A stretch of DNA of 64,000 nt from Kosmotoga olearia TBF 19.5.1 (GCF_000023325.1 NC_012785.1:2170001-2234000), one strand, 5' to 3'; numbered from the stretch's first letter, positions 21,392-49,695 are shown. Notes: a model not told the origin generated them from the sequence alone. Numbers and translations are program-made.

Positions 21392-21420
21392 AGGTTGTCC
21401 CGCAAGGGATAGAATATTAA

Positions 21421-21439
21421 CTTTGCAATATGTGCAAGG
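21421..21439 (+). promoter_or_regulatory. Hairpin in the cold-shock mRNA leader
   Basis: CTTTGCA and TGCAAGG form a seven-pair stem with two wobble-tolerant outer pairs and a five-base loop in the predicted 5' leader, shortly before the AAGGAGG site. Cold-shock leaders often fold to control translation with temperature; this role is inferred here. Confidence 0.4.
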
Positions 21440-21463
21440 TAGTTTCAAGGAGGAAACAAATCG

Positions 21464-21664
21464 ATGACAGGTACAGTTAAGTGGTTCAACAGCAGTAAGG
21501 GTTATGGTTTCATCACCAAGGACGAAGGTGGAGACGTGTTTGTTCATTTTTCAGCTATTGAAGTCGACGGATTCAAGACTCTCGATGAAGGTCAGAGAGT
21601 CGAGTTCGAGATTGGCGAAGGCCCAAAAGGTCCTCAGGCGATAAATGTTAAACCAATCAGATAA
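21464..21664 (+). CDS. csp: Cold-shock protein of the CspA family
   Basis: This 66-residue single OB-fold protein binds single-stranded RNA and acts as an RNA chaperone. It contains both RNA-binding motifs, KGYGFI at residues 12-17 and VFVHF at about 25-29, and the start MTGTVKWFN is typical. An AAGGAGG site precedes the ATG. It is a single-gene unit with its own promoter and terminator. Confidence 0.98.
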
Positions 21665-21682
21665 TCGTTGCGGTTATTAAGA

Positions 21683-21710
21683 GCGTCCACCAGTAGGTGG
21701 ACGCTTTTTT
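21683..21710 (+). terminator. Terminator of the cold-shock gene
   Basis: A nine-base-pair stem (GCGTCCACC / GGTGGACGC) with an AGTA loop is followed by six T residues, 19 bases after the csp stop. Confidence 0.92.
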
Positions 21711-22628: not shown

Positions 22629-22660
22629 AAAGCTCCCCTGATGGGGAGCTTTAACTTTTT
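22629..22660. terminator. Bidirectional terminator between degV and the 8-oxoguanine deaminase gene
   Basis: A ten-base-pair stem (AAAGCTCCCC / GGGGAGCTTT) with a four-base loop lies between convergent genes. T-rich tails are present on both strands. Confidence 0.85.
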
Positions 22661-27880: not shown

Positions 27881-27892
27881 GGAGGGTTAGTT

Positions 27893-30246: not shown

Positions 30247-30248
30247 AA

Positions 30249-31553: not shown

Positions 31554-31572
31554 AAGTATGGGAGGGATTAAA

Positions 31573-32658
31573 TTGGATCTCACAACGAAGATAGCCGGTC
31601 TGCAGCTTGCAAATCCGGTAATGCCCGCTTCAGGGCCGTTGACCGGGGACGACCAGAAGATGCTTGCCCTTACAGATTTTGGGCTTGGTGCCATGGTTAC
31701 CAAGACGATATCTACAAAAGCTGCTGAGGTTCCACGTCCCTGTATAATTGCAGGAAAAAACTATATTATGAATACCGAGTTGTGGACGGAATATCCACCT
31801 GAAAAGTGGAAAGGTGAATTCATACCAAAATTCAGAGAAAAAAGCTCTCTTCCATTGATAGTCAGTCTGGGATACACCGTGGAAGATCTTGAGGTCCTGG
31901 TACCAATGTTCGACGATCTTGCCGACGCTTTTGAGCTTTCCACACATTATGTGGCGGATGATCCAGAGCTCATGAAACATCTCATCAGGACGGTTAAAAA
32001 GCATACGGATAAACCTGTATTCCTGAAGTTTGATCCGTCGGTACCTGAACCTGAGGTCATGGCAAAAGCAGTTGAAGAAGCTGGTGGGGATGGTATAGTT
32101 GCCATTAACTCTTTAGGACCGGGTTATCCACTCTACCGCGAATTAAAATCGTCACCTCTAGGTAGCACACATGGCTTTGGCTGGATTTCCGGACCAGTGA
32201 TCAAGCCAATTGCTCTGGCGATGGTAAAACGGGTGGCTTCGAGCTGTAATTTGCCAATCATCGGTGTAGGCGGTATATCATCTGCTGATGACGTCATCGA
32301 TTTTATTATGGCCGGTGCTTCCGCTGTTCAGCTTCTTTCAGGTGCTCTACTCTATGGAAAGAGCATCTACAAAAAAATAATCGCTGATCTTCCAAAAAAA
32401 TTAGAGGCACTTGGGTACAACAGTATAAATGAAATAAAAGGCCTTGCGACGAATTCTAATCCTGAGGTATCATACGAAAAACGAACACCGAAAATTGATC
32501 ATTCCAAGTGTGTCAAATGTGGCGTGTGTGTTGAAGTGTGTCCTTACTTTGCTTTGAGTATGGAAGAACAGGTTATTGTGGATGAGGAAGCCTGTTTTGG
32601 TTGTGGCCTATGTCAGACCAAATGTCCAACAAAAGCCATCGGAGGTGTTCTTTTTTGA
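31573..32658 (+). CDS. PreA-like dihydropyrimidine/dihydroorotate dehydrogenase with C-terminal ferredoxin domain
   Basis: The N-terminal 280 residues form a dihydroorotate-dehydrogenase-like FMN barrel (LANPVMPASGPLTGD, KFDPSVPEPEVMAKAVEEAG, GVGGISSADDVIDFIMAGAS). Residues from about 300 hold two [4Fe-4S] motifs, CVKCGVCVEVCP and CFGCGLCQTKCP. This matches the PreA subunit of NAD-dependent dihydropyrimidine dehydrogenase. In this operon it may reduce a purine-ring intermediate, in the place where E. coli has YgfK. I prefer the TTG at 31573 behind GGGAGGG; an ATG at 31558 overlaps that site. No PreT-like partner is adjacent. Confidence 0.85.
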   Translation: MDLTTKIAGLQLANPVMPASGPLTGDDQKMLALTDFGLGAMVTKTISTKAAEVPRPCIIAGKNYIMNTELWTEYPPEKWKGEFIPKFREKSSLPLIVSLGYTVEDLEVLVPMFDDLADAFELSTHYVADDPELMKHLIRTVKKHTDKPVFLKFDPSVPEPEVMAKAVEEAGGDGIVAINSLGPGYPLYRELKSSPLGSTHGFGWISGPVIKPIALAMVKRVASSCNLPIIGVGGISSADDVIDFIMAGASAVQLLSGALLYGKSIYKKIIADLPKKLEALGYNSINEIKGLATNSNPEVSYEKRTPKIDHSKCVKCGVCVEVCPYFALSMEEQVIVDEEACFGCGLCQTKCPTKAIGGVLF

Positions 32659-33914
32659 TTAAGTACAACTACTTGCTTCGGTGTATAAGCTGTGGAAAGG
32701 AATATTCACCAGAGGAAGTTGAATACACTTGCCCTGATTGCGGACCAAGACTGGGAACACTTGAAGTTATATACGATTTTTCGATTCTGAAAAAAAGGCT
32801 GAAAGATGCCCGTTGGTCAACGTTTTCTGAACGCGGGATCTGGCAATTTTCCGACCTACTTCCTCTTCCCGAAAATTTTGACGAACTTATACCTCCGCTT
32901 CTTGTGGGGAACACACCTTTGTATAGGGCTGATAAAATTGCAGGAAAATATGGCGTTGCTGAGGTCCTGGTAAAGGATGATGGAAGAAACCCGACAGCTT
33001 CCTTTAAGGACAGAGCCAGTGCCCTTGCTGTTGTTAAAGCAAAGGAAAAAGGTTACAATACCGTTTTTTGTGCCTCGACAGGCAACGCAGCGAGTTCTCT
33101 GGCAGGGCTCACCGCTGCCGCGGGCTTGAAGAGCGTTATCTTTGTTCCCGCGTCGGCACCAGCAGCCAAACTGACCCAGCTGCAGGTATACGGTGCAAAG
33201 GTTCTCGCGATAGATGGTAGTTACGATGAAGCCTTCGATATATCGATGATCGTCGGTATGGAAAAAGGTTGGTATTGCAGAAACAGTGCGATAAATCCCT
33301 ATCTACTTGAAGGAAAGAAAACAGGTGCGCTTGAGCTTGCGGTACAAACGGGAATGGATCTTCCTGACTTTGTCTTCGTTTCTGTCGGTGATGGTACCGT
33401 TTTGAGCAGTTTCTATAAGGCCTTTATGGATTTGAAGGAACTTGGAATCATCGAAAGGATTCCAACGATCGTAGGTGTTCAGGCCGAGAATGCTTCCGCC
33501 ATTATAGATACATACGAACGTGGAGAGCCTTTCACACCTGCTGATTTAGACGCACATAGCGTAGCGGATAGCATTGCTGTAGGCAAGCCAAGAGACGTAA
33601 TAAAAGCCTGTAAGTATACAAAAAAGAACGGTGGCCTCTTTGTGAAGGTTTCAGATAAGGAAATCCTGGATAGTATAATCGAACTTGCAAGGGGAACCGG
33701 CGTTTTTGCTGAACCGGCGGGAGCAACTGCTTTTGCAGGATTCAAACGAATGAAAAGTCTTGGTCAGATTTCGGAAAGCGCAAGAGTAGCTTTGATTGTT
33801 ACCGGAAATGGCCTTAAAGATTTGAAAGCACCTGCTCGGGTTCTCGAAGAGCTTAAAAAGCTTCCTGCTAACGTTGAGAAAATCAGGGAGGGATTGGATG
33901 AAGATAAGCTTTAA
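32655..33914 (+). CDS. Threonine-synthase-like PLP enzyme (fold type II)
   Basis: The 420-residue protein starts with a zinc-ribbon (RCISCGKEY and TCPDCG) and continues with a threonine-synthase-like PLP domain: GNTPLYRADK, the PLP lysine in TASFKDRAS, STGNAASSLAG and SVGDGTVLSSFYKA. It could be a true threonine synthase. Its place between a PreA-like gene and molybdenum hydroxylase genes, with no hom or thrB nearby, suggests a beta-elimination in purine catabolism instead, where E. coli uses YgeX. The TTG start overlaps the previous stop (TTGA) behind GGAGGTG. Confidence 0.85.
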   Translation: MIKYNYLLRCISCGKEYSPEEVEYTCPDCGPRLGTLEVIYDFSILKKRLKDARWSTFSERGIWQFSDLLPLPENFDELIPPLLVGNTPLYRADKIAGKYGVAEVLVKDDGRNPTASFKDRASALAVVKAKEKGYNTVFCASTGNAASSLAGLTAAAGLKSVIFVPASAPAAKLTQLQVYGAKVLAIDGSYDEAFDISMIVGMEKGWYCRNSAINPYLLEGKKTGALELAVQTGMDLPDFVFVSVGDGTVLSSFYKAFMDLKELGIIERIPTIVGVQAENASAIIDTYERGEPFTPADLDAHSVADSIAVGKPRDVIKACKYTKKNGGLFVKVSDKEILDSIIELARGTGVFAEPAGATAFAGFKRMKSLGQISESARVALIVTGNGLKDLKAPARVLEELKKLPANVEKIREGLDEDKL

Positions 33915-34368
33915 GTTGAATGGTGAGCCCGTAGAAGTCGATATAAGGCCGGATATGCGGGTACTTGACTTTCTGAGAGATGAAATGGGATTGACGGGAG
34001 TCAAAGAAGGTTGTGGTGAAGGAGAATGTGGTGCCTGTACCATCATAGTCGATGGGCGTAACGTGCACTCATGCCTCATGCTTACCGTCGAACTTGATGG
34101 CAAAGATGTCTGGACTATTGAAGGATTGTCGAAGGATGGAAAACCACATCCTGTACAGGAAGCATTTATAGAAGCTGGTGGTGTGCAGTGTGGTTTCTGT
34201 ACCCCCGGGATGATAATGTCGGCTAAGGTGTTGCTGGACAGAAATCCAAAACCGTCTGAGGAACAAATAAAAGAAGCCCTTGAGGGAAACCTTTGCAGAT
34301 GTACCGGTTACTACAAGATCATAAAGGCTGTTGAATTGGCATCTGAAAAACTGGAAAAGGGTGAATAA
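33898..34368 (+). CDS. Molybdenum hydroxylase small subunit, two [2Fe-2S] clusters (copy 1)
   Basis: This 156-residue protein passes electrons from the Mo site to FAD. The plant-type cluster motif CGEGECGACT near residue 39 and the second, all-alpha cluster motif QCGFCTPGM with LCRCTGYY near 100-145 are both complete. It resembles XdhC of E. coli xanthine dehydrogenase. The ATG overlaps the threonine-synthase-like gene by 17 bases. A second copy follows at 37409-37882. Confidence 0.94.
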   Translation: MKISFKLNGEPVEVDIRPDMRVLDFLRDEMGLTGVKEGCGEGECGACTIIVDGRNVHSCLMLTVELDGKDVWTIEGLSKDGKPHPVQEAFIEAGGVQCGFCTPGMIMSAKVLLDRNPKPSEEQIKEALEGNLCRCTGYYKIIKAVELASEKLEKGE

Positions 34369-34372
34369 AAAC

Positions 34373-34996
34373 GTGAAAACGGGGCTCGTTATACTGGCTG
34401 CAGGATCAGCAAAGCGGTTTGGTACCGATAAACTCCTGAAAGAGTTCGATGGTAAACCGCTGCTTCAGATTGTTCTGGATAATTTGAAAGATGCCCCGTG
34501 TTACAAAAAAGTAGTTGTTGTGAGACCTGACTTTCCGGTAGAGAGATTTGATTTTTCAGGTTACGAGATGGTTCTAAATCACAGCCATATCTATGGTATC
34601 TCTTCGAGCCTAAAAGTTGGTTTTAATGCGTTCCTATTAGAAGAACCTGAAGGGATTTTTATAACCCTGGGAGATATGCCTTTTATCTACTCTTCTGACA
34701 TTGTAGAGATAAGAAAGAGAATAGTGCCAGAAGATCCGAAGATTATCAGTTTCGTGCACGAAGGGAAAAAGGGGTTTCCAACGTTTATTCCCGGTAAATT
34801 CTTCAAAAGGATCATGGAACTCCACGGTGACAGAGGCGCGTCGGTTCTTATTAATGATAACAAGTCAGCTTTTATACCGCTCGGAGGGCAGAAAAGGCAT
34901 TGTTTTGACATAGATACTGAAAATGATTTTAAGGAGGCGTTGAAAACCATTGAAAGACCCGAGAAAGCTATGGGAGATACTCATAGGTCTCGATGA
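34373..34996 (+). CDS. MocA-like molybdenum cofactor cytidylyltransferase
   Basis: The enzyme would attach CMP to molybdopterin, giving the MCD form of the cofactor. The 208-residue protein has the nucleotide-binding LAAGSAKRFGTDKLL near residues 8-22, ITLGDMPF near 100 and a C-terminal DIDTENDF, typical of MocA/YgfJ. The GTG at 34373 follows AGGGTGA. It overlaps the next gene by 47 bases. Its presence suggests that the hydroxylases here use MCD. Confidence 0.85.
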   Translation: MKTGLVILAAGSAKRFGTDKLLKEFDGKPLLQIVLDNLKDAPCYKKVVVVRPDFPVERFDFSGYEMVLNHSHIYGISSSLKVGFNAFLLEEPEGIFITLGDMPFIYSSDIVEIRKRIVPEDPKIISFVHEGKKGFPTFIPGKFFKRIMELHGDRGASVLINDNKSAFIPLGGQKRHCFDIDTENDFKEALKTIERPEKAMGDTHRSR

Positions 34997-35717
34997 ACCT
35001 TTTGTTATCGCGACTGTTTGTAATACAAAAACCTCCAGCGAAAGAATGGAAGGAGAGGTTTTTGGAATGACTTATGCCGGGAAATTTTATGGAGAAGCTG
35101 AAGGAGAATTCAGGAGATTTCTCGAAGCCAATATGACAAAAGCGATGAAGACGTCTATGAGTTTTATGGAAACATACATAGAGCATAGAAGTGTCGCGGC
35201 CCTATGGGGGGCAACCTGTGGTGAACGTACATCGGTTTTTTTTCATTACGTTGGCCCGTCACCGAAGGTATACATCTTTGGTGCCGGAAAGTTATCAGAA
35301 AGGGTTGCAAAAATACTTGTAGCTGCTGATTTTGATGTGGTGGTAATGGATGACAATGAGAACTTCCTGAGAAATTTTGATAAAATCTGTAGTTACAGAA
35401 AAATCAATTACGACGAGCCCGGGAGCTTTCCGACAATAGAAGCGAGGGATTTCTGTGTTGTGTTGACCAGAGGGCACACCAAAGATTTCGAGGCTTTGCA
35501 GATATGTCTCGCTTCAAAAGCAAGATACATTGGACTGATTGGTTCAAATAAGAAAAATTCTGAACTTAAAGAGAGGATGTTTAGAGCAGGCTATACAGAG
35601 GAAGCGTGGGAACGCGTAAAGACACCGATAGGGATAGAGATAGGTGCTCAAACACCTGGCGAAATAGCAATAGCCATTGCCGCTGAAATAGTAAAGGTAA
35701 AAAACGAAAAACAATAA
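34950..35717 (+). CDS. XdhC/CoxI-family molybdenum hydroxylase maturation protein
   Basis: XdhC-type proteins bind the molybdenum cofactor, help install the terminal sulfido ligand, and insert it into the hydroxylase. The 255-residue protein has a short N-terminal XdhC domain and a Rossmann domain starting KVYIFGAGKLSERVA near residue 110, followed by VVLTRGHTKDFEAL, YIGLIGSNKK and GAQTPGEIAIAIAAEI. This name follows the Rhodobacter XdhC chaperone, not the E. coli XdhC iron-sulfur subunit. The TTG start lies 12 bases from AAGGAGG, slightly long. Confidence 0.88.
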   Translation: MKDPRKLWEILIGLDEPFVIATVCNTKTSSERMEGEVFGMTYAGKFYGEAEGEFRRFLEANMTKAMKTSMSFMETYIEHRSVAALWGATCGERTSVFFHYVGPSPKVYIFGAGKLSERVAKILVAADFDVVVMDDNENFLRNFDKICSYRKINYDEPGSFPTIEARDFCVVLTRGHTKDFEALQICLASKARYIGLIGSNKKNSELKERMFRAGYTEEAWERVKTPIGIEIGAQTPGEIAIAIAAEIVKVKNEKQ

Positions 35718-35740
35718 TTATAGAGACCGGGGGTGTTTAT

Positions 35741-36592
35741 GTGGCTTTTAAGGTAATACTGCCGGAAACAGAAGACGAACTTATGATGGCTCTCATGGAA
35801 GATAATGTAAAAATCATGGCTGGTGGAACTGATTTGATGGTGAAAATACGCGCTGATAGAGAAAAACCAGAAAAGGTTGTTCTTCTTTCAAAGCTCAAGG
35901 GAATGGATGAAATTGAAGATCTTGGTGATAGGATAAGGATCGGGTGTAAGGTTACACACACTCAGATACTGGAATCAGAGTTATTACAAAAAGATGCGAA
36001 GATCCTTACAATGGCGGTCAGAGAAATTGGTAGTCCGCAGATAAGGAACAAAGGAACTCTGGTAGGTAACGTGGTGAACGCTTCACCTGCTGGCGATTCG
36101 ATACTTGCTCTTTATCTATCAAATGCAAAGGTGGTAATTCGAGGTCCTAAAGGTGAACGTTCTCAGGATATAGAGGATTTCATTGTTGGCCCTGGAAAAA
36201 CAACGCTCTCCTTAGGTGAATATGTACGGGCGATTGTTTTTGAAAAAACTGGCGAATGGTTCCCATTTTTCTACAAGGTTGGCCAAAGAAACGCGATGGC
36301 TATTTCCGTTACCTCAGTGGGGGCTCTTGTGAAGGAAAGCAAAATTAGGATAGCATTCGGGTCAGTAGCTCCTACTGTGGTTAGAGCTCATAAAGCTGAA
36401 AGATATTTCGAAAGAGAAGGAATTGATGGAACAAAACTGGAACAATTCGTTGACTATTGTATGGAATATGTAACTCCTATTAGTGATATTCGTGCTTCCG
36501 CTTGGTACAGAAAAGAAGTTACCAAAAATCTGATCACTAAGATCATAGAACTCTGGAATGAAAGGAGGGGGAGATGTGCTCCTCAATGTTAA
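35741..36592 (+). CDS. Molybdenum hydroxylase FAD-binding subunit (copy 1)
   Basis: This 283-residue medium subunit holds FAD and passes electrons onward. The FAD-binding motifs are MAGGTDLMVK near residue 26 and QIRNKGTLVGNVVNASPAGD near 100. The C-terminal CO dehydrogenase-type flavoprotein domain follows (KVGQRNAMAISVTSV). A GTG start follows GGGGGTG. It overlaps the next FAD subunit gene by 17 bases. Confidence 0.92.
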   Translation: MAFKVILPETEDELMMALMEDNVKIMAGGTDLMVKIRADREKPEKVVLLSKLKGMDEIEDLGDRIRIGCKVTHTQILESELLQKDAKILTMAVREIGSPQIRNKGTLVGNVVNASPAGDSILALYLSNAKVVIRGPKGERSQDIEDFIVGPGKTTLSLGEYVRAIVFEKTGEWFPFFYKVGQRNAMAISVTSVGALVKESKIRIAFGSVAPTVVRAHKAERYFEREGIDGTKLEQFVDYCMEYVTPISDIRASAWYRKEVTKNLITKIIELWNERRGRCAPQC

Positions 36593-37412
36593 AGAATTTT
36601 TGAAACCCACTTCGGTTGAACAGGCCTTTGAGATGCTGAACAGAGATAGAAAACATTCCATTCTTCTTTCAGGTGGAACAACGGTTTCCCTCATGAAATC
36701 GACCACTGTCGAAGTAATAATTGATCTCAAGAACATCAAAGAACTAGCCGAGATAAAAGAGACCGAAGATGGTTTGAGTGTTGGTGCTAATATCACCATA
36801 GAAGACTTTAGAAAGTCTGATTTGATCTCCACATTTTTCGGAAATTTTTTCTCCAAAAGTTTTGCAACTGTTGGAAGTTGGCAAATACGTAACATGGCGA
36901 CTATCGGTGGCTCCGTTGCACCGAGGCTTGGTTGGTCTGATGTAACAACCTGTCTTTTGGCTGCTGGAGCCAAACTTAAAACTTTTGGAGAAGAAGGCTA
37001 TCGTTACATGGATATCGAAGATTTCAACAAGCTGGATAGGTACAGTAAGCCCATCATAACCCACGTTATTTTGCCCAAAGATGGCTATCTCTACTCTTTC
37101 AAGAAACTGTCGAAATCATCATTCGATATTGCCATCGTTAATTTTGCTCTCGCATTAAAACTAAATTCAGGAATTGTGGAAAGCTCGCGGGTGGTTATAG
37201 GCTCACGTCCGCACTTCCCAAAGCGTTTCGAAAAGGTTGAACAAGCCCTCAAGGGGTTAAAAATTGAGGAAGTTCCAGAGCACGTTAAACCATTAGTTTT
37301 TGAGCATTTTGAAGGCGGCAGTAATTTCCTCGCCACAGAAGAATACCGTAGGCACATGGCCTCTGTTTTGGCAGAAAGAGCAGCAAAGGAAATTCGGGAG
37401 ATGATAGCATGA
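36576..37412 (+). CDS. Molybdenum hydroxylase FAD-binding subunit (copy 2, YgfM-like)
   Basis: This 278-residue protein is a second FAD subunit. It has LLSGGTTVSLMK near residue 32, where most family members have GGTDL, and SWQIRNMATIGGSVA near 105. It diverges clearly from copy 1, so it is not a recent duplication. The GTG at 36576 follows AAAGGAGG. It forms a set with the small subunit and large subunit genes directly downstream and overlaps the former by four bases. Confidence 0.88.
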   Translation: MLLNVKEFLKPTSVEQAFEMLNRDRKHSILLSGGTTVSLMKSTTVEVIIDLKNIKELAEIKETEDGLSVGANITIEDFRKSDLISTFFGNFFSKSFATVGSWQIRNMATIGGSVAPRLGWSDVTTCLLAAGAKLKTFGEEGYRYMDIEDFNKLDRYSKPIITHVILPKDGYLYSFKKLSKSSFDIAIVNFALALKLNSGIVESSRVVIGSRPHFPKRFEKVEQALKGLKIEEVPEHVKPLVFEHFEGGSNFLATEEYRRHMASVLAERAAKEIREMIA

Positions 37413-37882
37413 GGATAAGTCTAGAAGTTAATGGAAAACTTCATGAAGTCGAAATTGATCCAGGAGAAATGCTTCTGGATGTTTTGAGAAGACTTGGATA
37501 TAAGAGTGTGAGAAGAAGCTGTAACTCAGCAAGCTGTGGAACCTGCACGGTGTTGCTCAACGGTAAACCAATTCTGTCGTGTAGTACCTTTGCAGCTTCT
37601 GTTGATGGCCAAAGCGTAGAAACCGTTGAATCCTTGAATGAAAATGATGAGCTACATCCAATTCAGGAAGCCCTTCTTGAAGAAGGTGGATCTCAATGTG
37701 GTTTTTGTATTCCGGGACTTACAATGACAACTAAAGCATTTCTTGAACAGAACCCTGACCCCACAGAAGAGGAGATCAGGGAAGCTTTGAACGGAAATAT
37801 CTGTCGTTGTACCGGTTATGAAGCCCAAACCAGAGCAATCAAAAAAGCAGCAAAACGTCTTAGGGGTGATGAGAATGTTTGA
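37409..37882 (+). CDS. Molybdenum hydroxylase small subunit, two [2Fe-2S] clusters (copy 2)
   Basis: This 157-residue protein has the plant-type cluster motif CNSASCGTCTVLLNGKP near residues 38-54 and the second cluster motif QCGFCIPGLT with ICRCTGYE. The spacing matches the CoxS/XdhC family. It overlaps both neighbours and probably belongs with the FAD copy 2 and the large subunit at 37875. Confidence 0.94.
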   Translation: MRISLEVNGKLHEVEIDPGEMLLDVLRRLGYKSVRRSCNSASCGTCTVLLNGKPILSCSTFAASVDGQSVETVESLNENDELHPIQEALLEEGGSQCGFCIPGLTMTTKAFLEQNPDPTEEEIREALNGNICRCTGYEAQTRAIKKAAKRLRGDENV

Positions 37883-40214
37883 AACCCTGAATAGCAAAGA
37901 ATTCAAAGTGATAAATAAATCAATAAAGAAAGTAGATGGAAGAGGTTTAGTTAGAGGAAAACCTGTTTATGCAGGAGACCTGGATATTCCTAACGCTCTT
38001 CATGTCAAACTAGTCCGCAGTCCTCATGCTCACGCCATAATAAAGAAAATAGATAAAACCAAAGCTCTTGCAATTCCTGGAGTTGTAGCGGTCATTACCT
38101 ATGAAGATCTTCCGAGAATTGCCTTTACGAGAGCCGGTCAGGGATATCCTGAACCATCACCTTATGATACCTTTGTTCTTGATAGGAAAGTCAGGTACGT
38201 TGGTGATCCAGTTGCAATTGTTGCTGCCGAAACGGAAAGAGCTGCAATTCTTGGAGCTAATGCCGTTGAAGTTGAATACGAGATCTTGCCTGCTATACTC
38301 AATTTCGAAGAAGCAATGAAAGAAGATGCACCTATCATACATGATGAAGAAGATATTTCTGGTGCTTTTGACCCGAAAAAAAATATTGCAGCTCACTTTG
38401 AGATGGAAATTGGCGATCTGGACGATGCCTTCAAAAAATGCGACAAAGTAATTACTCGAACATACTATGTTAACACCCAGCTTCACGCTATGCTGGAACC
38501 TCACACCGCTACAAGTTACTATGACTCGAATGGAAGGTTGGTTATAGTTTCTTCAACGCAGGTACCTTTCCATGTAAGAAGAATTATCAGCAGAATTTTT
38601 GAAATTCCTATTTCCAAGATACGTGTTATAAAACCAAGAATAGGCGGTGGATTTGGTGGCAAGCAGGCAATTCATCAAGAAGCCTATGTTGTGGCTGTCA
38701 CTTTGAAAACCGGTAGACCAGCGAAAATCGTTTACGAACGCCCGGAAGTCTCCATGGCTACCAATATCAGGCATGAAATGAAATTCACAGTAACAGTTGG
38801 TGCCACCAGTGATGGAAAGATAAAAGCTATATCGATGGAAGGACTATCAAATACAGGAGCTTATGGTGAACATGCTCTAACAACCTTTATGGTTGCCGGT
38901 TCTAAGACCCTTCCGTTATACAACAAAGTTGATGCTGTTAAATTTGTCGGTGATGTAGTTTACACGAATCTTCCACCTGCAGGTGCTTACAGAGGTTATG
39001 GTGCTCCTCAGGGGCTATTTGCATTGGATTGTACAATTGATGAACTGGCTCACGAGCTTGGTCTTGACCCTCTTGAGGTTAAGGAGAAAAATTCTATCAG
39101 GGAAGGTGAAACTTCACCTATATTCAAGATAATGGGTGAAGGTCGTGAGGGCGTAGACCAGATAGTGAGAAGCTGTAAACTTCAGGAATGTATCGACAAG
39201 GGCAAAAAGGCCATCGGTTGGAATGAAAAGCACGGAAAGGCGATAAGAAACGGAAATAAAGTTAGAGGTGTAGGATGCTCAATTGCAATGCAGGGATCTG
39301 GAATAGCAAAAATAGACATGGCTGCTGCGACCATAAAAATGAATGATGACGGATCCTTCAATCTTCTTATAGGTGCCACAGATCTTGGAACTGGAAGCGA
39401 TACAATAATGGCACAAATAGCTGCTGAGGTTTTAGACGTTCCGGTTGAGAAGATAATCGTTTACTCTTCGGATACTGATATGACGCCTTTCGATACTGGC
39501 GCTTATGCTTCCAGTACGACCTACGTATCTGGAAACGCTGTGAGAAAAGCAGCAGAAGAGGTAAAGAAACAGATCATCGAGAGTGCTTCAAAATATCTTG
39601 AAGAACCCATCGAAGATCTTTACGTAAAAGATGAAAAGGTGATATCCAAAAAGAGTGGAAAAGAAGTGACTTATGCTGAACTTTGTACAAAACTCTTCTA
39701 CACATTCGAACAAAAGCAGATAGCAGCAACTGCTTCTTACGTGGGTGAAGAGTCACCACCACCGTTCCTCGCTACCTTTGCTGAGGTAGAAGTTGATCTG
39801 GATACTGGAAAAATAGATATAGTAAAATTGGTTTCTTATGCAGATTGTGGGACACCACTTAACCCGATACAGGCTAGAGGACAGCTGGAAGGCGCGACAA
39901 TGCAGGGTATAGGTTGGGCGTTGTATGAAGATGTTATCTATTCTAACAATGGGCGTATGCTGACAAACGACTTCTTTACTTACAAAGTGCCATCTCGTTT
40001 GGATTATGGTGAGTTAGAATGTGGACTTGTCGATAGTTACGAGCCAACAGGGCCTTTCGGGGCGAAGAGTATTGCCGAAATTGGTATTGATACACCAATC
40101 CCCGCTATTGCAAATGCAATATTTGACGCAACCGGAATAAGACTCCGAGAAGCGCCTTTCAGAAGCGAAAAGCTCTTCTTTGAGATCTTAAAGAAGGAGA
40201 AAGAGCAAAAATGA
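37875..40214 (+). CDS. Molybdenum hydroxylase large subunit, Mo-cofactor binding (copy 1)
   Basis: This 779-residue catalytic subunit belongs to the xanthine dehydrogenase family. Cofactor-contact motifs are GGGFGGKQA near residue 257, GAYRGYGAPQG near 373, MAQIAAEVLDVP near 510, and a C-terminal GPFGAKSIAEIG with the base glutamate in the place of the usual GAKGIGE. The ATG at 37875 follows GGGGTGATGAG. The exact purine substrate cannot be read from the sequence; hydroxylation of xanthine, hypoxanthine or a related base is inferred from context. The next gene overlaps its stop by four bases. Confidence 0.93.
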   Translation: MFETLNSKEFKVINKSIKKVDGRGLVRGKPVYAGDLDIPNALHVKLVRSPHAHAIIKKIDKTKALAIPGVVAVITYEDLPRIAFTRAGQGYPEPSPYDTFVLDRKVRYVGDPVAIVAAETERAAILGANAVEVEYEILPAILNFEEAMKEDAPIIHDEEDISGAFDPKKNIAAHFEMEIGDLDDAFKKCDKVITRTYYVNTQLHAMLEPHTATSYYDSNGRLVIVSSTQVPFHVRRIISRIFEIPISKIRVIKPRIGGGFGGKQAIHQEAYVVAVTLKTGRPAKIVYERPEVSMATNIRHEMKFTVTVGATSDGKIKAISMEGLSNTGAYGEHALTTFMVAGSKTLPLYNKVDAVKFVGDVVYTNLPPAGAYRGYGAPQGLFALDCTIDELAHELGLDPLEVKEKNSIREGETSPIFKIMGEGREGVDQIVRSCKLQECIDKGKKAIGWNEKHGKAIRNGNKVRGVGCSIAMQGSGIAKIDMAAATIKMNDDGSFNLLIGATDLGTGSDTIMAQIAAEVLDVPVEKIIVYSSDTDMTPFDTGAYASSTTYVSGNAVRKAAEEVKKQIIESASKYLEEPIEDLYVKDEKVISKKSGKEVTYAELCTKLFYTFEQKQIAATASYVGEESPPPFLATFAEVEVDLDTGKIDIVKLVSYADCGTPLNPIQARGQLEGATMQGIGWALYEDVIYSNNGRMLTNDFFTYKVPSRLDYGELECGLVDSYEPTGPFGAKSIAEIGIDTPIPAIANAIFDATGIRLREAPFRSEKLFFEILKKEKEQK

Positions 40215-41344
40215 AAAAAGTTTTACTGGTAACACTTGTGTTAATCCTGGTGGCTACCTTCTGTTTTGCTGAAGAACTAACCATCTGGATTAGCTGGGAA
40301 GGCGAAGAGTTTTTCACCGAGGTTGCGAAGGTTTATTCAGAAAGAACGGGAATTGATGTAAAGGTATTACATGTTCCCAAGCTGGATAAAAAATTATTTA
40401 CCGCTCTTAGGACAGGGAATCTGCCGGATATTTCAATGGTTAAAGACACCAATACCGAAAGAATAGCGAATTCAGATTTCCTGGTGAAATTGGGTAGAGC
40501 GGATCTTGAATCATTGGGGATTTTTCCAGAGAGAAACCTCAAACCGTACTCGGTGAACGGATTGTTAGTTGCCGTTCCTTACTACGCAGATGTGCAGGTT
40601 GTCTTCGCCAATCTTGATTTACTTGAAAGCAAAGATCTTGAACTCGATTTCGATTACACCATTGAAGATCTTAAAAAAGTCGCGGAAAAATTTGCTGGTA
40701 CTGATATTGTTCCTGTTGCATGGGATTTCATGTCCTCTTACGTGTTCTATCCCTTCATGACGAGATTTGGAAAGCTCTGGGATGAAGATGGGAAACCGAC
40801 ATTTGATTCTCCAGCAATTGCTGAGGCTATAACATACATCAAAAATCTCTTTGATGAAGGAGTCTTTACCAGACTCAATCGTGGTGCGCTGGTAAGCTCT
40901 TTTGAAGCAGGAAAAATAGCGGTAGTAATTCAAGGAAGCTATCTTGCAAAGGACTTTGAGGAAGCCGGAATTAGATTCAAGATGCTGCCATTCCCCTTGA
41001 TCGAGGGTAAAAGGGTCAATCCAATAATTGACTCAAAAGGTTTCGCCATTTTCAATGCCTCCAAAAAAGATATAGCCATCGATTTTCTAAGGTTCCTATT
41101 TTCCCGGAGTATTGATTATTGTATTGAATACAACAAAATACCCATGTGGGCAACTGATGTACCAGTGGAACTTAAAGATCTAAATGATATCCTCAACGTT
41201 GGACAGTATATGTACAACGGTTTGAAATTCCAATCATTCTATTTCAGCACGATGAGAACGGTGCTTCAGGCAGTCTATTCTGGAAGCCTTTCTGTTGATG
41301 AAGCATTGAAAAGTGCTCAGAATTACGTGAATTCAAACTGGTGA
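40211..41344 (+). CDS. ABC transporter substrate-binding protein, family 1 (sugar type), in the purine operon
   Basis: The 377-residue secreted protein has a signal peptide (MKKVLLVTLVLILVATFCFA) and a MalE-like fold: TIWISWEGEEFF, TALRTGNLPDISMV near residue 75, and SFEAGKIAVVIQGSY near 230. Its start overlaps the stop of the molybdenum hydroxylase gene, so it is translationally coupled to purine catabolism. That placement suggests a purine, nucleoside or related ligand despite the sugar-type family. No lipobox is visible; a signal-peptidase I site after CFA is likely. Confidence 0.88.
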   Translation: MKKVLLVTLVLILVATFCFAEELTIWISWEGEEFFTEVAKVYSERTGIDVKVLHVPKLDKKLFTALRTGNLPDISMVKDTNTERIANSDFLVKLGRADLESLGIFPERNLKPYSVNGLLVAVPYYADVQVVFANLDLLESKDLELDFDYTIEDLKKVAEKFAGTDIVPVAWDFMSSYVFYPFMTRFGKLWDEDGKPTFDSPAIAEAITYIKNLFDEGVFTRLNRGALVSSFEAGKIAVVIQGSYLAKDFEEAGIRFKMLPFPLIEGKRVNPIIDSKGFAIFNASKKDIAIDFLRFLFSRSIDYCIEYNKIPMWATDVPVELKDLNDILNVGQYMYNGLKFQSFYFSTMRTVLQAVYSGSLSVDEALKSAQNYVNSNW

Positions 41345-41345
41345 T

Positions 41346-43397
41346 ATGGCAGAACTTTTTCTCGGACTGACGGTAATACTCTTTTTAATCGCTATATTTT
41401 CGCGAAGGGTCATATCGATGGCCCTTCCGCTTTTGTTTCTTGTTGTCATTGTTATTGTATTTCCTTTGATCTGGGCATTCGTTATTTCATTCTTCAGTTA
41501 TGGAGCCTTTGACGAGGTTCCTGAAGCGGTTGGATTTCATAACTACAAACTTGTTTTTGAAGACAACGGATTGCGCTTATCTTTCCAGATAACATCTTTA
41601 TGGGCATTCTTGAAGGTCTCATTGGAGATAGCAATTTCCTTTTTGCTAGCAGTCTCCCTTCGTAAAACATCAAAAGTCAACAAAGCTATTCTGGTTTTAA
41701 TCGGTATAGGTTGGTTCATGCCGTCTTTTATAAGCGTCTCCGCATGGAGAGCGTTTGTACAGGGTTATGGAAGCAATTCCCCGTTTAATTTTATACTCAA
41801 TTTACTATTCGGTACTACCATAGACATCACCACCCAGCCTTTGTCTGCTTTCATTGTAACTCTCTTTGTCAGTGTGTGGTTATCGATCCCCATGAGTACG
41901 ATGATAATTATAGCCATGCTCCAGAGTGTCCCCAGGGATGTTGACGACATGTTGCTTATAGATGGGGCTAAAGATACCGCCATCAACAGTATGCTTTTTG
42001 GACAGATCAGATATCTTTTGATTCCATATTACTTTTTTCAGCTTGCCAGAGCATTCAAGGGTTTTTCAACGGCATTTTTGTTGAGTGGTGACGGACCGCT
42101 GTTGCCTGGAGGATTTACACCCAATACCATTGTAGGGTCAACCTCTTTTCTTGGAATAGTTTTGTATAGAAAGTTCAGTATCGAAGAAGATTATGGAATA
42201 CTCTCGGCATATTCGGCTGTCGTTGGAGTGATAACTCTGTTGTGGTTAATTGCCGCCTTGAGTTCGCGAGCAAAAGTTCCAAGGCGTCACCATTACGTTA
42301 TGCCTCTTGCAGGTGTTTCACATTTTCTCATCGGTTATTACCTTAAAATAGGTTTCTGGCCTTATTTGCTTGCGGCTGGTTATCTTTTTAGTACATTTTT
42401 GGTTCCTCGATTCAAAAAAGCCTTTAGAATTTTGTCTGCTGTATTGGTGTTGTTGGATGTTGTATTTTGTATACATTCGATCTGGTCTGCTGGATGGAAA
42501 GGCATAAATCCAGCAACTTTTCTCGCAGTTCCTGCTGTGCTGTTCTCATTGAGATACAAAATGCCTGTTATTAATTTCTCACCCCCCAAAATCCTTAAAT
42601 CGATTCTAAAATGGATTCCGGGAGTTATCAGCCTCGTTATACTTGTTTACATAATATTACTTGCCCTTTCTGGAAAGAACACCGTTTTACCGAAACTTTC
42701 GGATTTAACGTTCAAGAACTTTTCAACTGTCTTTTTCAGGCATCGACTATGGTTTAACCTTTTGAACACCCTGAAAATCGCGATGTTCAGTACCACTATT
42801 CTTTTTATGACGGCGTTACCCTTTAGCTATCTGTATTCTCGCGGAAAAAATAAGGCAGCATCTTTCATAATGCTTGTAGTTCTGTTTGGTGGAATCTATA
42901 CGGGTATGCATACACTCTTACCTCTATACATTCTTTTTGACAAACTCAACCTTTTGAACTCATTGATAGGTATTGCCATGGTGGTCGCAAATCAAGCGAT
43001 TCCGCTTACAGTAATAACAATGAGTACATTCTTTTCAAAAATGCCAGGAGAATTCAGGGAAGTAGCTAAACTGGAAGGAATGAGTGAAGGAAGATACTTT
43101 TCAAGAATCGTGTTACCCCTGAGTTTGCCTGTCATTTCCGGGATTTTTATCTATGTGCTCGTTAGTTCATGGAATGCTTTTACTGTTCCTCTCGTTTTTA
43201 TTGACAAAAGCGAATTAATGCCTTTCTCTCTCAAGGTTTTCAGTTACGCAGGGGAAATAGGCAGTTTTTACACACGGTGGAATCTTTTTGGTGCTGCTTC
43301 TATAATAGGGATTATACCGTTGCTGTTCTTATATAAACTAAATCAAAAATATCTCTACTCGAAGAATCTCGCTGAGGGGGGAATAACTTATGAATAG
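41346..43397 (+). CDS. Fused MalF-MalG-type ABC permease
   Basis: The 683-residue protein contains two permease domains in one chain. Residues 1 to about 310 form a MalF-like half with DMLLIDGAKDTAINSML at the EAA-loop position, degenerate but with DGA kept. After a helical linker (about 310-415), the second, MalG-like half contains REVAKLEGMSEGRYFSRIVLP, a clear EAA loop, and LVSSWNAFTVPLVFI. No ATPase gene is nearby; like several CUT1 systems it probably borrows a shared MsmX-type ATPase. It starts one base after the binding-protein stop. Confidence 0.88.
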   Translation: MAELFLGLTVILFLIAIFSRRVISMALPLLFLVVIVIVFPLIWAFVISFFSYGAFDEVPEAVGFHNYKLVFEDNGLRLSFQITSLWAFLKVSLEIAISFLLAVSLRKTSKVNKAILVLIGIGWFMPSFISVSAWRAFVQGYGSNSPFNFILNLLFGTTIDITTQPLSAFIVTLFVSVWLSIPMSTMIIIAMLQSVPRDVDDMLLIDGAKDTAINSMLFGQIRYLLIPYYFFQLARAFKGFSTAFLLSGDGPLLPGGFTPNTIVGSTSFLGIVLYRKFSIEEDYGILSAYSAVVGVITLLWLIAALSSRAKVPRRHHYVMPLAGVSHFLIGYYLKIGFWPYLLAAGYLFSTFLVPRFKKAFRILSAVLVLLDVVFCIHSIWSAGWKGINPATFLAVPAVLFSLRYKMPVINFSPPKILKSILKWIPGVISLVILVYIILLALSGKNTVLPKLSDLTFKNFSTVFFRHRLWFNLLNTLKIAMFSTTILFMTALPFSYLYSRGKNKAASFIMLVVLFGGIYTGMHTLLPLYILFDKLNLLNSLIGIAMVVANQAIPLTVITMSTFFSKMPGEFREVAKLEGMSEGRYFSRIVLPLSLPVISGIFIYVLVSSWNAFTVPLVFIDKSELMPFSLKVFSYAGEIGSFYTRWNLFGAASIIGIIPLLFLYKLNQKYLYSKNLAEGGITYE

Positions 43398-44136
43398 CGT
43401 TTTTGATAGAGTGCTCGAGATTGCAGCAAACAAAGGAAAGAACTTGTCGGTACTTGATTATGTCGTGGGTACTGGAATGACAGCTGTTAAGCTCTCCTCC
43501 GGAAACGTTGGAGTGGCTCACCTTCTTAGGGATGAGCTTCCTTCCGGTTGTACCCTATTCGACGAGCTCTTTGAAACTCCCTGTACCCTTCCCGAATTTT
43601 TGAAGCTTGGTTATATTCATCATCCTATAACGGTCAGCCTCGCACTTGCCGCCGCGAATGCTCTCGTAAACGCTGAATTAGAAGAAAAATCTGTCTCACA
43701 ATCAGATATATTCGAGATATTGAACATTCAGGAAAATGACATTGTTGGCTTTATAGGTGATTTCAAACCTTTAACATCGAAATTGAAAGATAAGGTAAAA
43801 GGGCTATTGATCTTTGAAAGGCATTCGGGAGAAGGATATCTTCCTGATTGGGCTATCCCGTGGAAGTTGAAAGAATGTACGGCTGTTATTGTTACGGGAA
43901 CCACGATGATGAACAGAACAATAGACAGCATATTGAATTCTGTGAATACTGATAGAGTAGTGGTTTTTGGACCTTCAACACCACTTGTTCCAGAGGTTTA
44001 TCCGGATGTGGTGAAGGCAATAGGTGGAGCAAGAATAGTCAATCCAGAATTGGCAATGAAGGTAGCTTCGCGAGCAGGAGGAACGAAAAACCTATACAGG
44101 CTAAAAGCTGCAAAGAAAGTAACGCTTATTCTATAA
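43390..44136 (+). CDS. DUF4213/DUF364 putative heavy-metal chelation protein
   Basis: The 248-residue protein has an N-terminal DUF4213 (VVGTGMTAVKLSSGNVGVAH near residue 26) and a C-terminal Rossmann-like DUF364 domain (VVVFGPSTPLVPEVYPDV near 200). The function is not established; members often sit near metal-handling and molybdenum-related genes. Here it is the last gene of the purine operon, overlapping the permease by eight bases. A role in metal or cofactor delivery to the molybdenum hydroxylases is a guess from context. Confidence 0.75.
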   Translation: MNSVFDRVLEIAANKGKNLSVLDYVVGTGMTAVKLSSGNVGVAHLLRDELPSGCTLFDELFETPCTLPEFLKLGYIHHPITVSLALAAANALVNAELEEKSVSQSDIFEILNIQENDIVGFIGDFKPLTSKLKDKVKGLLIFERHSGEGYLPDWAIPWKLKECTAVIVTGTTMMNRTIDSILNSVNTDRVVVFGPSTPLVPEVYPDVVKAIGGARIVNPELAMKVASRAGGTKNLYRLKAAKKVTLIL

Positions 44137-44137
44137 T

Positions 44138-44167
44138 AAAAAAGGCGGCTTTATGCCGCCTTTTTTA
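44138..44167. terminator. Bidirectional terminator between the two purine operons
   Basis: A stem AAAAAAGGCGGC / GCCGCCTTTTTT with a five-base loop lies between convergent operons and has T-runs on both strands. Confidence 0.92.
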
Positions 44168-45557: not shown

Positions 45558-47858
45558 TCATGCCTCCTTGATGAGTTTTAATATATACTCGGCAGTCGCT
45601 GGTATTCTTTTTACTCTCTTACCAATCGCACGTGAAATACCGTTAGCTATGGCAGCAGGTGTTGGCATCAGTGATGGTTCACCAATTCCTTTGGCACCGT
45701 ACGGACCGGAAGAGTATTCATCTTCGACTATATCTATTTTAAGCTCTTCAGGGATTTCATGTATTGTCGGAATTATATAAGTATTGAAATTATCGGTGAC
45801 AATTTTGCCACGATCCATCTTAATTTGCTCATACAGAGCGTAACCCATTCCCTGAACAAAACCACCCTGAATCTGGCCAATGAGTCCTTCCGGGTTCAAC
45901 GCTTTACCGACATCATGACTTGTAAATCCTTTTACAACTCTCGTCAAGCCTGTCAACATGTCAACTTCAACCAGAACTATCTGGCTGGCATACGAATAGG
46001 TCACATAGGCTTCACCCTGCCCGGTTTCATGATCCCACTCAAGTTTTGGGGTCTCGTACCATCCCGTTTCATTCAATTTTACATTTTTCATATAAGCATT
46101 TTCCACAAGTTCATCAAAACTGAGCTCATTTCCTTTGGAGTCAAAATAACGGCCGTTTTCCCAGCTAACATCTTCGGGATCGGTATCAAAGATCTCGGCG
46201 AAGAGTTGAACAAATCTTTTTCTTAATTCTCTCGCAGCTATTCTCACAGCATTTCCGGAATAGAGAGTGGTTCTTGAAGCGACGGTTGGCCCACTATCGG
46301 GAACGAAAGCGGTATCAGGTTGATGAACATTGATCTTTTCCAGTTTTTGTCCGAGCTCTTCCGCAGCGAGCATAGCAATCACTGTTTTCGCTCCCTGTCC
46401 CATTTCTGTACCGCCTATTCTTACGTCTATGGTTCCATCCTTGTTCACCTGTATGTGTGCTCCTGAAGCATCTAAGTGCTGCCCGGCAGCGCCGAGGCTG
46501 ACCCCATAGATTATATGTGAAACGCCAAGTCCGCGTTTTTTGAAACTATTCTGTTTGTTGAATTCTTCTACTTCCTTCTTCAGATTTTCCCAATCAGCGA
46601 TTGTTCTGACATTTTCCAGAGTTTGGACCGCCCCAACACTTTCCGTGAGCAGATGATTTGTGGCCGTTCTGCTTCCAACACGAAGAGTGTTTTTCAACCT
46701 GAACTCAATTGGGTCTATGCCTAGCTTTAGAGAGATCTCATCGATCATGGATTCAACGGCAAAAAGAACCTGTGGGCTTCCAAAGCCTCTAAAAGCACCT
46801 GGCGGAACCTTGTTGGTGTAGACACCATAAACATCCACTTTAACATTTGGTATCTCATAACTACCAGCTGCATGAACAAGCGTTCTGAACATTACGATAG
46901 GTGATAGGGTAGCGTAGGCTCCCATATCCATGTAGGCCTTGATCTCTATTGATTTTAACTTTCCGCTCTTGTCCACACCTATTTTGTAGTGAGAAGTAAT
47001 TGGATGGCGTTTAGATGTTGTTTGTATATCAACTTCTCTGCTGTATATGAGTTTGGCAGGCCTGCCTGTATTGTACGCAGCAACAGCGGCGTAACTAGCG
47101 ACATAAGAAGGTACATCTTCCTTTCCTCCGAATCCGCCACCGGTCTCTGTTTGAATCACACGCACCTTGTTTAAATCAATGCCAAGAATATGTGCAACAC
47201 TGTTTTGAACATAATATGGACACTGCATTGTTCCATAAACGGTATAACCGTAATCAATATCTGGCAAAACGACAACCCCTTGAGGTTCTAAATAGGCTTG
47301 TTCCTGATAATCGGCGTGGAAGTCGTCTTCGAAAATGAATTCGGATTCTGCAAATCCTTTTTCGACGTCGCCTTTCCTTATTTTCTTGTGAATCGGGACA
47401 TTCGTTGGCTCGTGTATCTTTATTTCGTCTTTCAACGCCTCCTCAATGCTAAAAATAGGTGGCAATTCCTCTATGGACAGTTTTACACGTTTTGCAGCTT
47501 CATCAGCTGCTTCCTGACTTTCAGCAGCTACCACAGCAACAACGTCGCCATAATACCTTATTTTTCCTCCTACTGGAACGAGACAGGGCATGTCTTTAAC
47601 AACTTCACCGAGTTGGTTTTCACCAGGAACATCTTTTGCAGTGTAAATACCAATAACATCGGGAATTTTCAACGCTTCCGAGAATTCTATTTCCTTCAGA
47701 ACTCCGTGGGGTTTTCTGGCAAGTACGAGAGAGCAGTAAACCATCCTGTTGAAGTACATATCAGCTGCAAATTTAGCCTGCCCGGTTACTTTAGGCAGTG
47801 CATCAACCCTTTTGACTTTCTTTCCTATAACGTTCCTGAGTTTTACTGTTGTCCTCAT
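45558..47858 (-). CDS. Molybdenum hydroxylase large subunit, Mo-cofactor binding (copy 2, XdhD-like)
   Basis: The 767-residue catalytic subunit has GGGFGGKEDVPSYVA near residue 245, GAFRGFGSPQVLFA near 360, GGTEMGQGAKT near 480 and GPYGAKGIGEPSLMPTPAA near 725 with the catalytic glutamate. These match xanthine-dehydrogenase-family enzymes more closely than copy 1 does. No FAD or iron-sulfur subunit gene is adjacent, so it must share those made from the plus-strand operon. The ATG at 47858 follows GGAAGG; a longer frame overlaps the upstream gene. It lies four bases after adenine deaminase. Substrate is inferred to be a purine. Confidence 0.93.
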   Translation of the reverse strand: MRTTVKLRNVIGKKVKRVDALPKVTGQAKFAADMYFNRMVYCSLVLARKPHGVLKEIEFSEALKIPDVIGIYTAKDVPGENQLGEVVKDMPCLVPVGGKIRYYGDVVAVVAAESQEAADEAAKRVKLSIEELPPIFSIEEALKDEIKIHEPTNVPIHKKIRKGDVEKGFAESEFIFEDDFHADYQEQAYLEPQGVVVLPDIDYGYTVYGTMQCPYYVQNSVAHILGIDLNKVRVIQTETGGGFGGKEDVPSYVASYAAVAAYNTGRPAKLIYSREVDIQTTSKRHPITSHYKIGVDKSGKLKSIEIKAYMDMGAYATLSPIVMFRTLVHAAGSYEIPNVKVDVYGVYTNKVPPGAFRGFGSPQVLFAVESMIDEISLKLGIDPIEFRLKNTLRVGSRTATNHLLTESVGAVQTLENVRTIADWENLKKEVEEFNKQNSFKKRGLGVSHIIYGVSLGAAGQHLDASGAHIQVNKDGTIDVRIGGTEMGQGAKTVIAMLAAEELGQKLEKINVHQPDTAFVPDSGPTVASRTTLYSGNAVRIAARELRKRFVQLFAEIFDTDPEDVSWENGRYFDSKGNELSFDELVENAYMKNVKLNETGWYETPKLEWDHETGQGEAYVTYSYASQIVLVEVDMLTGLTRVVKGFTSHDVGKALNPEGLIGQIQGGFVQGMGYALYEQIKMDRGKIVTDNFNTYIIPTIHEIPEELKIDIVEDEYSSGPYGAKGIGEPSLMPTPAAIANGISRAIGKRVKRIPATAEYILKLIKEA

Positions 47859-47862
47859 AATG

Positions 47863-49596
47863 TCAGCCTTCCTTTCCGATGAACAGTGATACAAAGTTAT
47901 TGTTGATAACATCAACAAGCCCCTGATTTGTTATTCTCAATTCCGGTATCACCGAAAGCTGAACAAAAGAAAGGGTCATAAAGAGATCCGGGACCTCACA
48001 TCCAAGTTCTTTCAACACTGTTTTCAAATGTCCGAGGCGCTCTGCAACCTCCTTCGAGCTGAGATTAGACATTAAGCCCGCGATGGGCAGGGGCAGTTCT
48101 GCCAGAACTTTTCCAGAATTTGCAATAACAAGGCCACCTCCCATATCGATTACCCTGTTTGCAGCCACAACCATATCAGCGTCGTTGGTACCTATCACAG
48201 ACATATTGTGGGCATCGTGGCCCACTGATGTGGCGACGGCTCCCTGCTTTAAACCTGTTCCGTTAATGAACCCTATCGCCATTGATTTCTCTTCACAATA
48301 TCTGCATATGGAAGCGACTTTCAGTATATCTCTATTGACATCGGATACTATCCGTCCATCTTTCGTTTTGGGTTCCATTCTAAGTTCTTTTGTTAAAACA
48401 TCATCTCCATAAACCCTTATTACACGTATATTTTCGCCTTTATTCAATACCTCAAGATCCTTCTCTTCAATATGCGGACACTTGAAGGTATTGACCTCTT
48501 CGAGCGGAAACTGTTCGCGGTTTATATCTATAACGAGTTTACCGTTTTCAGCGATGAGTTTTGAATCTTTGAAGACCATTGAGATCCTGAATTCTTCTAA
48601 ATTATCAACGATAACGAAATCAGCTTTGTATCCCGGAGCTATCGCACCCATTGATCTGAGATTATAATGGCGTGCCGTATTGATTGTTGCAGCCCTCACA
48701 GCGGTTATCGGATCGATGCCCTTCTTTATGGCATATCTGATCATATAATCTATGTGACCTTCGTTGAGAATATCATTCGGATGTTTGTCATCAGTACAAA
48801 AAGATATAAAAGGATAATTCTTTTCGTTGATTAACGGTAAAAGCTCATCGAGATTTCTCGCTACACTTCCTTCACGCACAAGAATCTGCATCCCACGAGC
48901 AAGCTTTTCTTTTGCCTCTTCCACATTTGTACATTCGTGGTCAGAGCGGATGAAGGCACAGATATAGGCGTTCAAATCCTTACCCGAAATTCCCGGAATG
49001 TGCCCGTCAATTTTTTTGTATTTGTGGCGAAGAAGTTCGATCTTGGCGATGGAATCATGATCTCCATTTATTATATCGGGATAATTCATCACTTCGCCAA
49101 GACCCAATACCCGGGGATGTTTCTCCACGAACCCTATCATATCCATGACGGAGATCCTCGCACCGTTGTTTTCCAGATTTGTTGCAGGTACAGATGATGG
49201 GAGCATGATGTAGAGATTGAGAGGTACTCCTTCAGTGGATTTTATCAGGTATTCTACACCATCGAGTCCAAGAACGTTAGCGATTTCATGGGGATCAGCG
49301 ATAACAGTAGTAGTTCCGCGCGGCAATACCGTTTTTGCAAACTCCACCGGTGAAACCATGGAAGATTCAATGTGAAGATGCGCGTCTATTAATCCCGGTA
49401 CAACGTATGCACCGTGCAAATCAATTACCTGTTTTCCTTCAGAGTAATCACCTATCCCCGCGATTCTTTTACGAAAAATGGCAATGTTTGCCCTTTCGAT
49501 TTCTCCACTAAACACATTGACTATTCGCGCATTTTTTAACAACAAATCAGCGGGTTGTTTCCCACGTGCAACAGGAATTATGTCTATTATGTTCAC
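47863..49596 (-). CDS. ade: Adenine deaminase
   Basis: The enzyme converts adenine to hypoxanthine and ammonia. The 577-residue sequence matches the AdeC family: DAHLHIESSM near residue 72, ADPHEIANVLG near 100, GLGEVMNYP near 160, FCTDDKHPND near 270, and the C-terminal domain with TSVGHDAHNMSVIG. The GTG at 49596 follows AAGGAGGG. It starts the minus-strand purine operon behind a strong promoter and feeds hypoxanthine to the downstream molybdenum hydroxylase. Confidence 0.96.
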   Translation of the reverse strand: MNIIDIIPVARGKQPADLLLKNARIVNVFSGEIERANIAIFRKRIAGIGDYSEGKQVIDLHGAYVVPGLIDAHLHIESSMVSPVEFAKTVLPRGTTTVIADPHEIANVLGLDGVEYLIKSTEGVPLNLYIMLPSSVPATNLENNGARISVMDMIGFVEKHPRVLGLGEVMNYPDIINGDHDSIAKIELLRHKYKKIDGHIPGISGKDLNAYICAFIRSDHECTNVEEAKEKLARGMQILVREGSVARNLDELLPLINEKNYPFISFCTDDKHPNDILNEGHIDYMIRYAIKKGIDPITAVRAATINTARHYNLRSMGAIAPGYKADFVIVDNLEEFRISMVFKDSKLIAENGKLVIDINREQFPLEEVNTFKCPHIEEKDLEVLNKGENIRVIRVYGDDVLTKELRMEPKTKDGRIVSDVNRDILKVASICRYCEEKSMAIGFINGTGLKQGAVATSVGHDAHNMSVIGTNDADMVVAANRVIDMGGGLVIANSGKVLAELPLPIAGLMSNLSSKEVAERLGHLKTVLKELGCEVPDLFMTLSFVQLSVIPELRITNQGLVDVINNNFVSLFIGKEG

Positions 49597-49618
49597 AGTA
49601 GCCCCTCCTTTTTTGTCG

Positions 49619-49647
49619 ATTATAAACATGAAGCCAAAGGATGACAA
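49619..49647 (-). promoter_or_regulatory. Promoter of the adenine deaminase operon
   Basis: TTGTCA (49647-49642), a 17-base spacer and a perfect TATAAT (49624-49619) lie about 23 bases upstream of the GTG start, so the leader is only about 16 bases. The inverted repeat TTTTGTC / GACAAAA (49611-49617 and 49643-49649) brackets the element and could be an operator. Confidence 0.78.
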
Positions 49648-49695
49648 AAGCAAGGAACGTTAATAACGCCCGAAATGAGCTGCTTATAGCCTGTA

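Follow-up and report, generated by a model that had tools for sequence, protein, structure and literature searches.

A candidate purine-pathway importer with a single-chain permease in a reductive urate-degradation-type operon of Kosmotoga olearia TBF 19.5.1

In Kosmotoga olearia TBF 19.5.1, a MalE-like substrate-binding protein (SBP) and a permease with MalF- and MalG-like halves on one polypeptide are encoded directly after the large subunit of a molybdenum hydroxylase. The pair is read here, tentatively, as a single-chain importer of CUT1-like type that takes up a purine-pathway compound, the ligand being predicted. Its architecture would be that of a CUT1-family type I ABC importer, in which the MalE-fold receptor feeds the single-chain permease and a shared UgpC/MsmX-type ATPase encoded elsewhere energises transport. 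The cargo (a purine base, urate or a close derivative) would be passed to the Mo-hydroxylase and the reductive urate-degradation enzymes of the operon. Such a cargo fits because of the operon itself, the co-occurrence of permease and hydroxylase, and an operon of relatives in which the pair is joined by adenine deaminase.

The operon and the SBP/permease pair

The window, i.e. the whole stretch of 64,000 nucleotides that was analysed (GCF_000023325.1 NC_012785.1:2170001-2234000), is part of a genome of 2,302,126 bases. It contains a 17 kb operon (positions 26681-44136) whose gene set matches a reductive urate-degradation cluster. The features of the operon and its minus-strand neighbours are:

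26681-27880, plus strand: YgeY hydrolase (616.6 bits, cut-off 321)
27893-28882, plus strand: carbamoyltransferase in the YgeW position
28879-30246, plus strand: hydantoinase/dihydropyrimidinase-like protein in the HyuA position
30249-31553, plus strand: SsnA, marker of the reductive urate pathway (462.5 bits, cut-off 444)
31480-32658, plus strand: dihydroorotate-dehydrogenase-like flavoprotein with 4Fe-4S domains (UacX/PreA type)
32601-33914, plus strand: PLP enzyme, threonine-synthase-like, in the YgeX position
33874-34368, plus strand: first [2Fe-2S] subunit
34331-34996, plus strand: MocA/MobA-like nucleotidyltransferase (profile match)
34950-35717, plus strand: XdhC-like maturation factor (NCBIfam)
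35741-36592, plus strand: second FAD subunit
36558-37412, plus strand: FAD subunit (Pfam, NCBIfam)
37409-37882, plus strand: [2Fe-2S] subunit (Pfam, NCBIfam)
37818-40214, plus strand: XdhA-like Mo-hydroxylase large subunit (705 bits, XdhA_XDHase cut-off 780)
40211-41344, plus strand: MalE-like SBP, 377 aa, Sec-type signal, no lipobox seen
41346-43397, plus strand: single-chain permease, 683 aa
43390-44136, plus strand: DUF4213+DUF364 protein, last gene of the operon (Pfam)
44137-44166, plus strand: apparent terminator at the operon end, GC-rich hairpin and T run (sequence read directly)
45558-47918, minus strand: second Mo-hydroxylase large subunit (Pfam, NCBIfam)
47863-49653, minus strand: adenine deaminase of the neighbouring minus-strand group (628 bits, cut-off 472.5)

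Both markers of the reductive urate cluster, SsnA and YgeY, are present, and the SBP with the fused permease is the sole transporter of the operon. The operon shares with the cluster described in PMC12507026 the genes for YgeY, SsnA, a UacX-like and a HyuA-like protein, a carbamoyltransferase, a PLP enzyme and a Mo-hydroxylase in one operon; it differs in its ABC-type transporter, and the phyla named for that cluster do not include Thermotogota. In the position of the YgeX diaminopropionate lyase, the PLP enzyme scores as a threonine synthase. Purine degradation genes were reported for Kosmotoga MAGs from DNA-fed enrichments (PMC8630151).

A further purine gene near the operon, 8-oxoguanine deaminase, scores above the NCBIfam cut-off at 22659-24014 (minus strand). 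At 21361-21710 (plus strand) the window holds an Rfam cspA thermoregulator match (80.5 bits, cut-off 78), which is unexpected for the phylum.

The initial annotation had the SBP start overlapping the stop of the hydroxylase large subunit, and indeed the two share 4 bp in the sequence ATGA (40211/40214), and AGGAG precedes the ATG. The gene for the DUF4213/DUF364 protein, absent from that annotation, overlaps the permease stop by 8 bp.

The permease had been described as one chain with both halves. It is a 683-aa open frame without stops, with NCBIfam matches on both sides (MalF model at residues 62-293, MalG/GlcU models at 427-679) and two stretches matched by BPD_transp_1 (Pfam). It consists of a MalF-like half (about 22-306), an insert (about 313-401) and a MalG-like half (about 415-677). 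In the AlphaFold model (mean pLDDT 78.6) four helices lie between the halves at 313-401. EAA-type loops are visible in both halves, degenerate in the first. Foldseek matched MalG/SugB-type chains, and the halves resemble MalF/MalG and SugAB. That a sequencing error produced the fusion was rejected, as the orthologues across the family are also single chains. No published description of a fused CUT1 permease was found in a literature search; this is weak evidence, subscription journals lying outside its reach.

Other permeases with two domains on a single chain are FbpB and ThiP. The PhnU2-type 2-aminoethylphosphonate permease likewise has both halves on one polypeptide, but the Kosmotoga permease is closest to CUT1 (GlcU, MalF, MalG) and its PhnU2 match is weak. 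With the CUT1 maltose-type importers (MalEFGK2; MalE1/MalE2 of Thermotoga) the pair shares the SBP fold, the permease halves and the type I architecture. SBP_bac_1/8 matches with a MalE fold, and MalF/MalG-like halves with EAA loops, were found as in CUT1, whereas the two separate permease subunits of CUT1 were not. The Kosmotoga permease subunits are instead fused and carry the four-helix insert, the pocket residues differ, and the gene context is one of purine catabolism.

No ATPase gene adjoins the pair in the window, as had been stated, and no MalK-like ATPase adjoins any of the homologous loci checked. A MalK/UgpC-class ATPase without an adjacent gene would be a further trait in common with the maltose-type importers, and the mal operons of Thermotoga maritima likewise lack an ATPase gene (PMC2246101). 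Three OB_MalK ATPases are encoded in the K. olearia genome, two within complete CUT1 operons and one as an orphan at about 312.6-313.7 kb (UgpC, 509 bits, cut-off 432). Given this orphan and the T. maritima operons, the missing ATPase is no puzzle. Importers of the CUT1 kind are known to share ATPases (PMC7658222, PMC2246101), and the orphan UgpC-type protein is a candidate partner here.

Conservation, co-occurrence and gene context

The named relatives in the comparison belong to Kosmotogaceae, Mesotoga and Mesoaciditoga/Athalassotoga. The initial annotation would have been refuted by relatives that lack the gene link, an outcome that did not occur. In family f1, Xdh, SBP and permease are contiguous in the loci of 13 relatives, and also in G009, where the SBP was found by tblastn only; in G011 and G015 the contig ends before Xdh. 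The SBP of one locus (L034) holds an assembly gap, and in another (L031) 340 bp separate SBP and permease. The distance from the hydroxylase to the SBP varies between -26 and +3 bp and is mostly +1 to +3 bp; the 4-bp overlap itself is therefore not conserved. Of the translational tie to the hydroxylase claimed in the initial annotation, the overlap stands for K. olearia and, among relatives, tight adjacency rather than exact overlap is retained. The DUF364 gene stands beside the permease in several genera; it follows the permease in genera g1-g3 but not in the Mesotoga-like g4.

A full-length homologue of the fused permease was found in 43 of 103 Thermotogota genomes (18 genera), counted by hand and comprising near full-length or split-contig matches, some only about 27-30% identical; these last may differ in cargo. 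An orthologue of the hydroxylase (at least 56% identity) is present in 58 of the 103 genomes, in 41 of them together with the fused permease. The permease occurs without it in two drafts, G048, which has a 61% hydroxylase fragment, and G011, where no orthologue was found. A check proposed in the initial annotation was whether the fusion goes along with xdh genes in related genomes. At the genus level, the hydroxylase, linked or not, occurs in all 18 permease genera and is absent from 14 of the 20 others (Fisher p=4e-6; p=0.009 when genera are permuted within families). SsnA is present in 16 of the 18 genera. A Mo-related importer, too, would be expected to co-occur with a Mo-hydroxylase.

In the permease tree, which has several long branches and some joins marked as uncertain, f1 groups with f5 and f7 (clade A), f4 with second copies from some Mesotoga-like genomes (clade B), and f2 with f11 (clade C). 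In f2 (L076, L077, L078, L095) SBP, permease and adenine deaminase are followed by a Bmp SBP, a two-domain ABC ATPase and a BPD_transp_2 permease. Adenine deaminase comes directly after the pair in four of the five loci read, at about 13-24 bp; in L079 it is split, with another gene between. In f11 a gene for a TrkA-type channel follows the pair. In f5 the pair stands beside rsmG, lplA and rsmI-like genes (identified by reading the sequences), often with DUF364, and not beside the hydroxylase; this lack of a link to purine genes is a point against the purine reading. The link to ygeY in f7 rests on one fragmentary genome and carries little weight.

The gene for the NCS2 purine transporter family (PF00860) is absent from the complete genome of K. 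olearia, a point for the purine reading; it is also absent from every f5 genome searched, and present in most relatives. Neither permease nor SBP matches PF00860 or SBP_bac_11 (Pfam). PF02608 was rejected as a discriminating marker, being present in 102 of 103 genomes. Purine nucleoside importers of the Bmp/PnrA type probably serve the same pathway, and the f2 copy adjoins such a system; the Kosmotoga SBP is not PF02608, however, and the permease not BPD_transp_2. As five Bmp-type SBPs in the K. olearia genome already give a nucleoside route, bases or urate would be the more natural cargo. Thus, of the purine or nucleoside substrate first proposed, the purine part gains from the co-occurrence and the SBP-permease-adenine deaminase operon, nucleosides become less likely, and a Mo-related cargo fits too.

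SBP fold and putative pocket

The SBP matches SBP_bac_8 and SBP_bac_1 (Pfam), and its AlphaFold model has a mean pLDDT of 93.0. Among solved structures, its fold is nearest to those of MalE1/MalE2 from Thermotoga and MalE from E. coli (Foldseek, alignment). Pocket residues were assigned by sequence alignment to MalE, at positions that are taken here to be the sugar contacts of MalE. E30, D127 and Y244 align with MalE D14, E111 and W230, and Y177 was placed at MalE Y155 by manual extension of the alignment. The aromatic Y177 and the acidic D127 are thus retained, whereas other residues stand at MalE D65, R66 and E153. Nine residues (W26, E30, K61, D73, Y125, D127, D274, K276 and K309) are invariant in all 34 SBPs, from all clades. 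The replaced sugar contacts and the invariant residues count in favour of the purine reading. The invariance suggests, from alignment, one ligand class throughout, so that the purine and the molybdenum clues would concern the same class.

Alternative cargoes and biological meaning

A molybdenum- or tungsten-related cargo, somewhat unlikely, is the leading alternative and a serious one. The pair would import molybdate, tungstate or a pterin-type compound (Mo cofactor or a precursor) for the Mo-hydroxylase, and the DUF364 protein would process or chelate it. One clue comes from clade B, where the Moco/Tuco riboswitch RF01055 (63-75 bits, cut-off 36) lies directly upstream of an intact SBP in five genomes and beside a broken one in a sixth. 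Riboswitches directly upstream of clade-B SBPs are located at:

L087:3125-3263
L089:8054-8193
L090:12056-12175
L091:11771-11898
L134:10-133

A paralogue with the same pocket residues behind such a riboswitch also counts against the purine reading. Clade-B SBPs are extended at the N terminus, and an exported PF00174-like protein is paired with them; a sulfite-oxidase-type domain as the identity of the extension was dropped for want of a match. In other parts of the phylum, RF01055 stands before AOR-type enzymes or Wtp-type tungstate/molybdate transporters, identities that are partly a reading of the sequences themselves. The motif is found before molybdate transporters, Moco biosynthesis genes and Moco-using enzymes (Regulski et al., PMC2408646), and because it precedes all three kinds of gene, its presence does not tell which role applies. 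DUF364 has been tied to Mo/W transport and pterins (PMC2954201), and a MocA-like gene stands divergent to the f2 pair. Further, 15 of 17 Kosmotogaceae-type genomes (G001, G003-G016) have Mo-hydroxylases yet no strong ModB/WtpB or TupA, the TupA probe being a hand-written consensus that found TupA in family f3 only. This exclusion does not discriminate, since known Mo transporters are often missing, too, from genomes that have Xdh but no permease.

Against a Mo/W cargo, the K. olearia genome has ModAB in a Moco operon, and no RF01055 riboswitch was found at the window locus or elsewhere in that genome. The SBP is MalE-type and not SBP_bac_11. Riboswitch control of a paralogous clade recalls some ModABC/WtpABC/TupABC systems, but the SBP and permease families are unmatched (ModB 22 bits against 182.6), and the adenine deaminase linkage is left unexplained. 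That the whole SBP/fused-permease family imports Mo cofactor or a pterin precursor, with one clade under riboswitch control and the Kosmotogaceae copy in a Mo-hydroxylase operon, is quite improbable.

PF13531 was rejected as a Mo-transporter marker for being too broad. A ModA-like protein beside ModB in a Moco operon (L123:5270-6067; G000:C1:755270-756067) has its SBP_bac_11 matches swapped, with profile 90-226 before 2-84, as has its counterpart in G002; the order suggests a circular permutation.

An importer of a different organic nitrogen or cofactor compound (for instance an amino compound or a polyamine) with a loose tie to the pathway is improbable: acidic and aromatic pocket residues and a weak similarity of the permease to PotBC would suit it, but no gene context indicates a specific compound. 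Very doubtful is an ordinary CUT1 sugar importer that stands in a purine operon by chance, since for all its MalE-type nearest folds and the MalF/MalG and SugAB likeness of its permease halves, several sugar-contact positions differ from MalE, the invariant charged residues are unlike MalE, no carbohydrate enzyme was recognised in the operon in any of the clades examined, and the pair co-occurs with a purine hydroxylase.

The operon adds Thermotogota to the phyla with the reductive urate pathway. Should a purine be the cargo, the pair would represent MalE-fold, single-chain purine uptake in anaerobic thermophiles, in a genome without the NCS2 proteins that most relatives have. If it is molybdenum- or pterin-related, the pair would help to explain the molybdenum supply of many Xdh-bearing Thermotogota.
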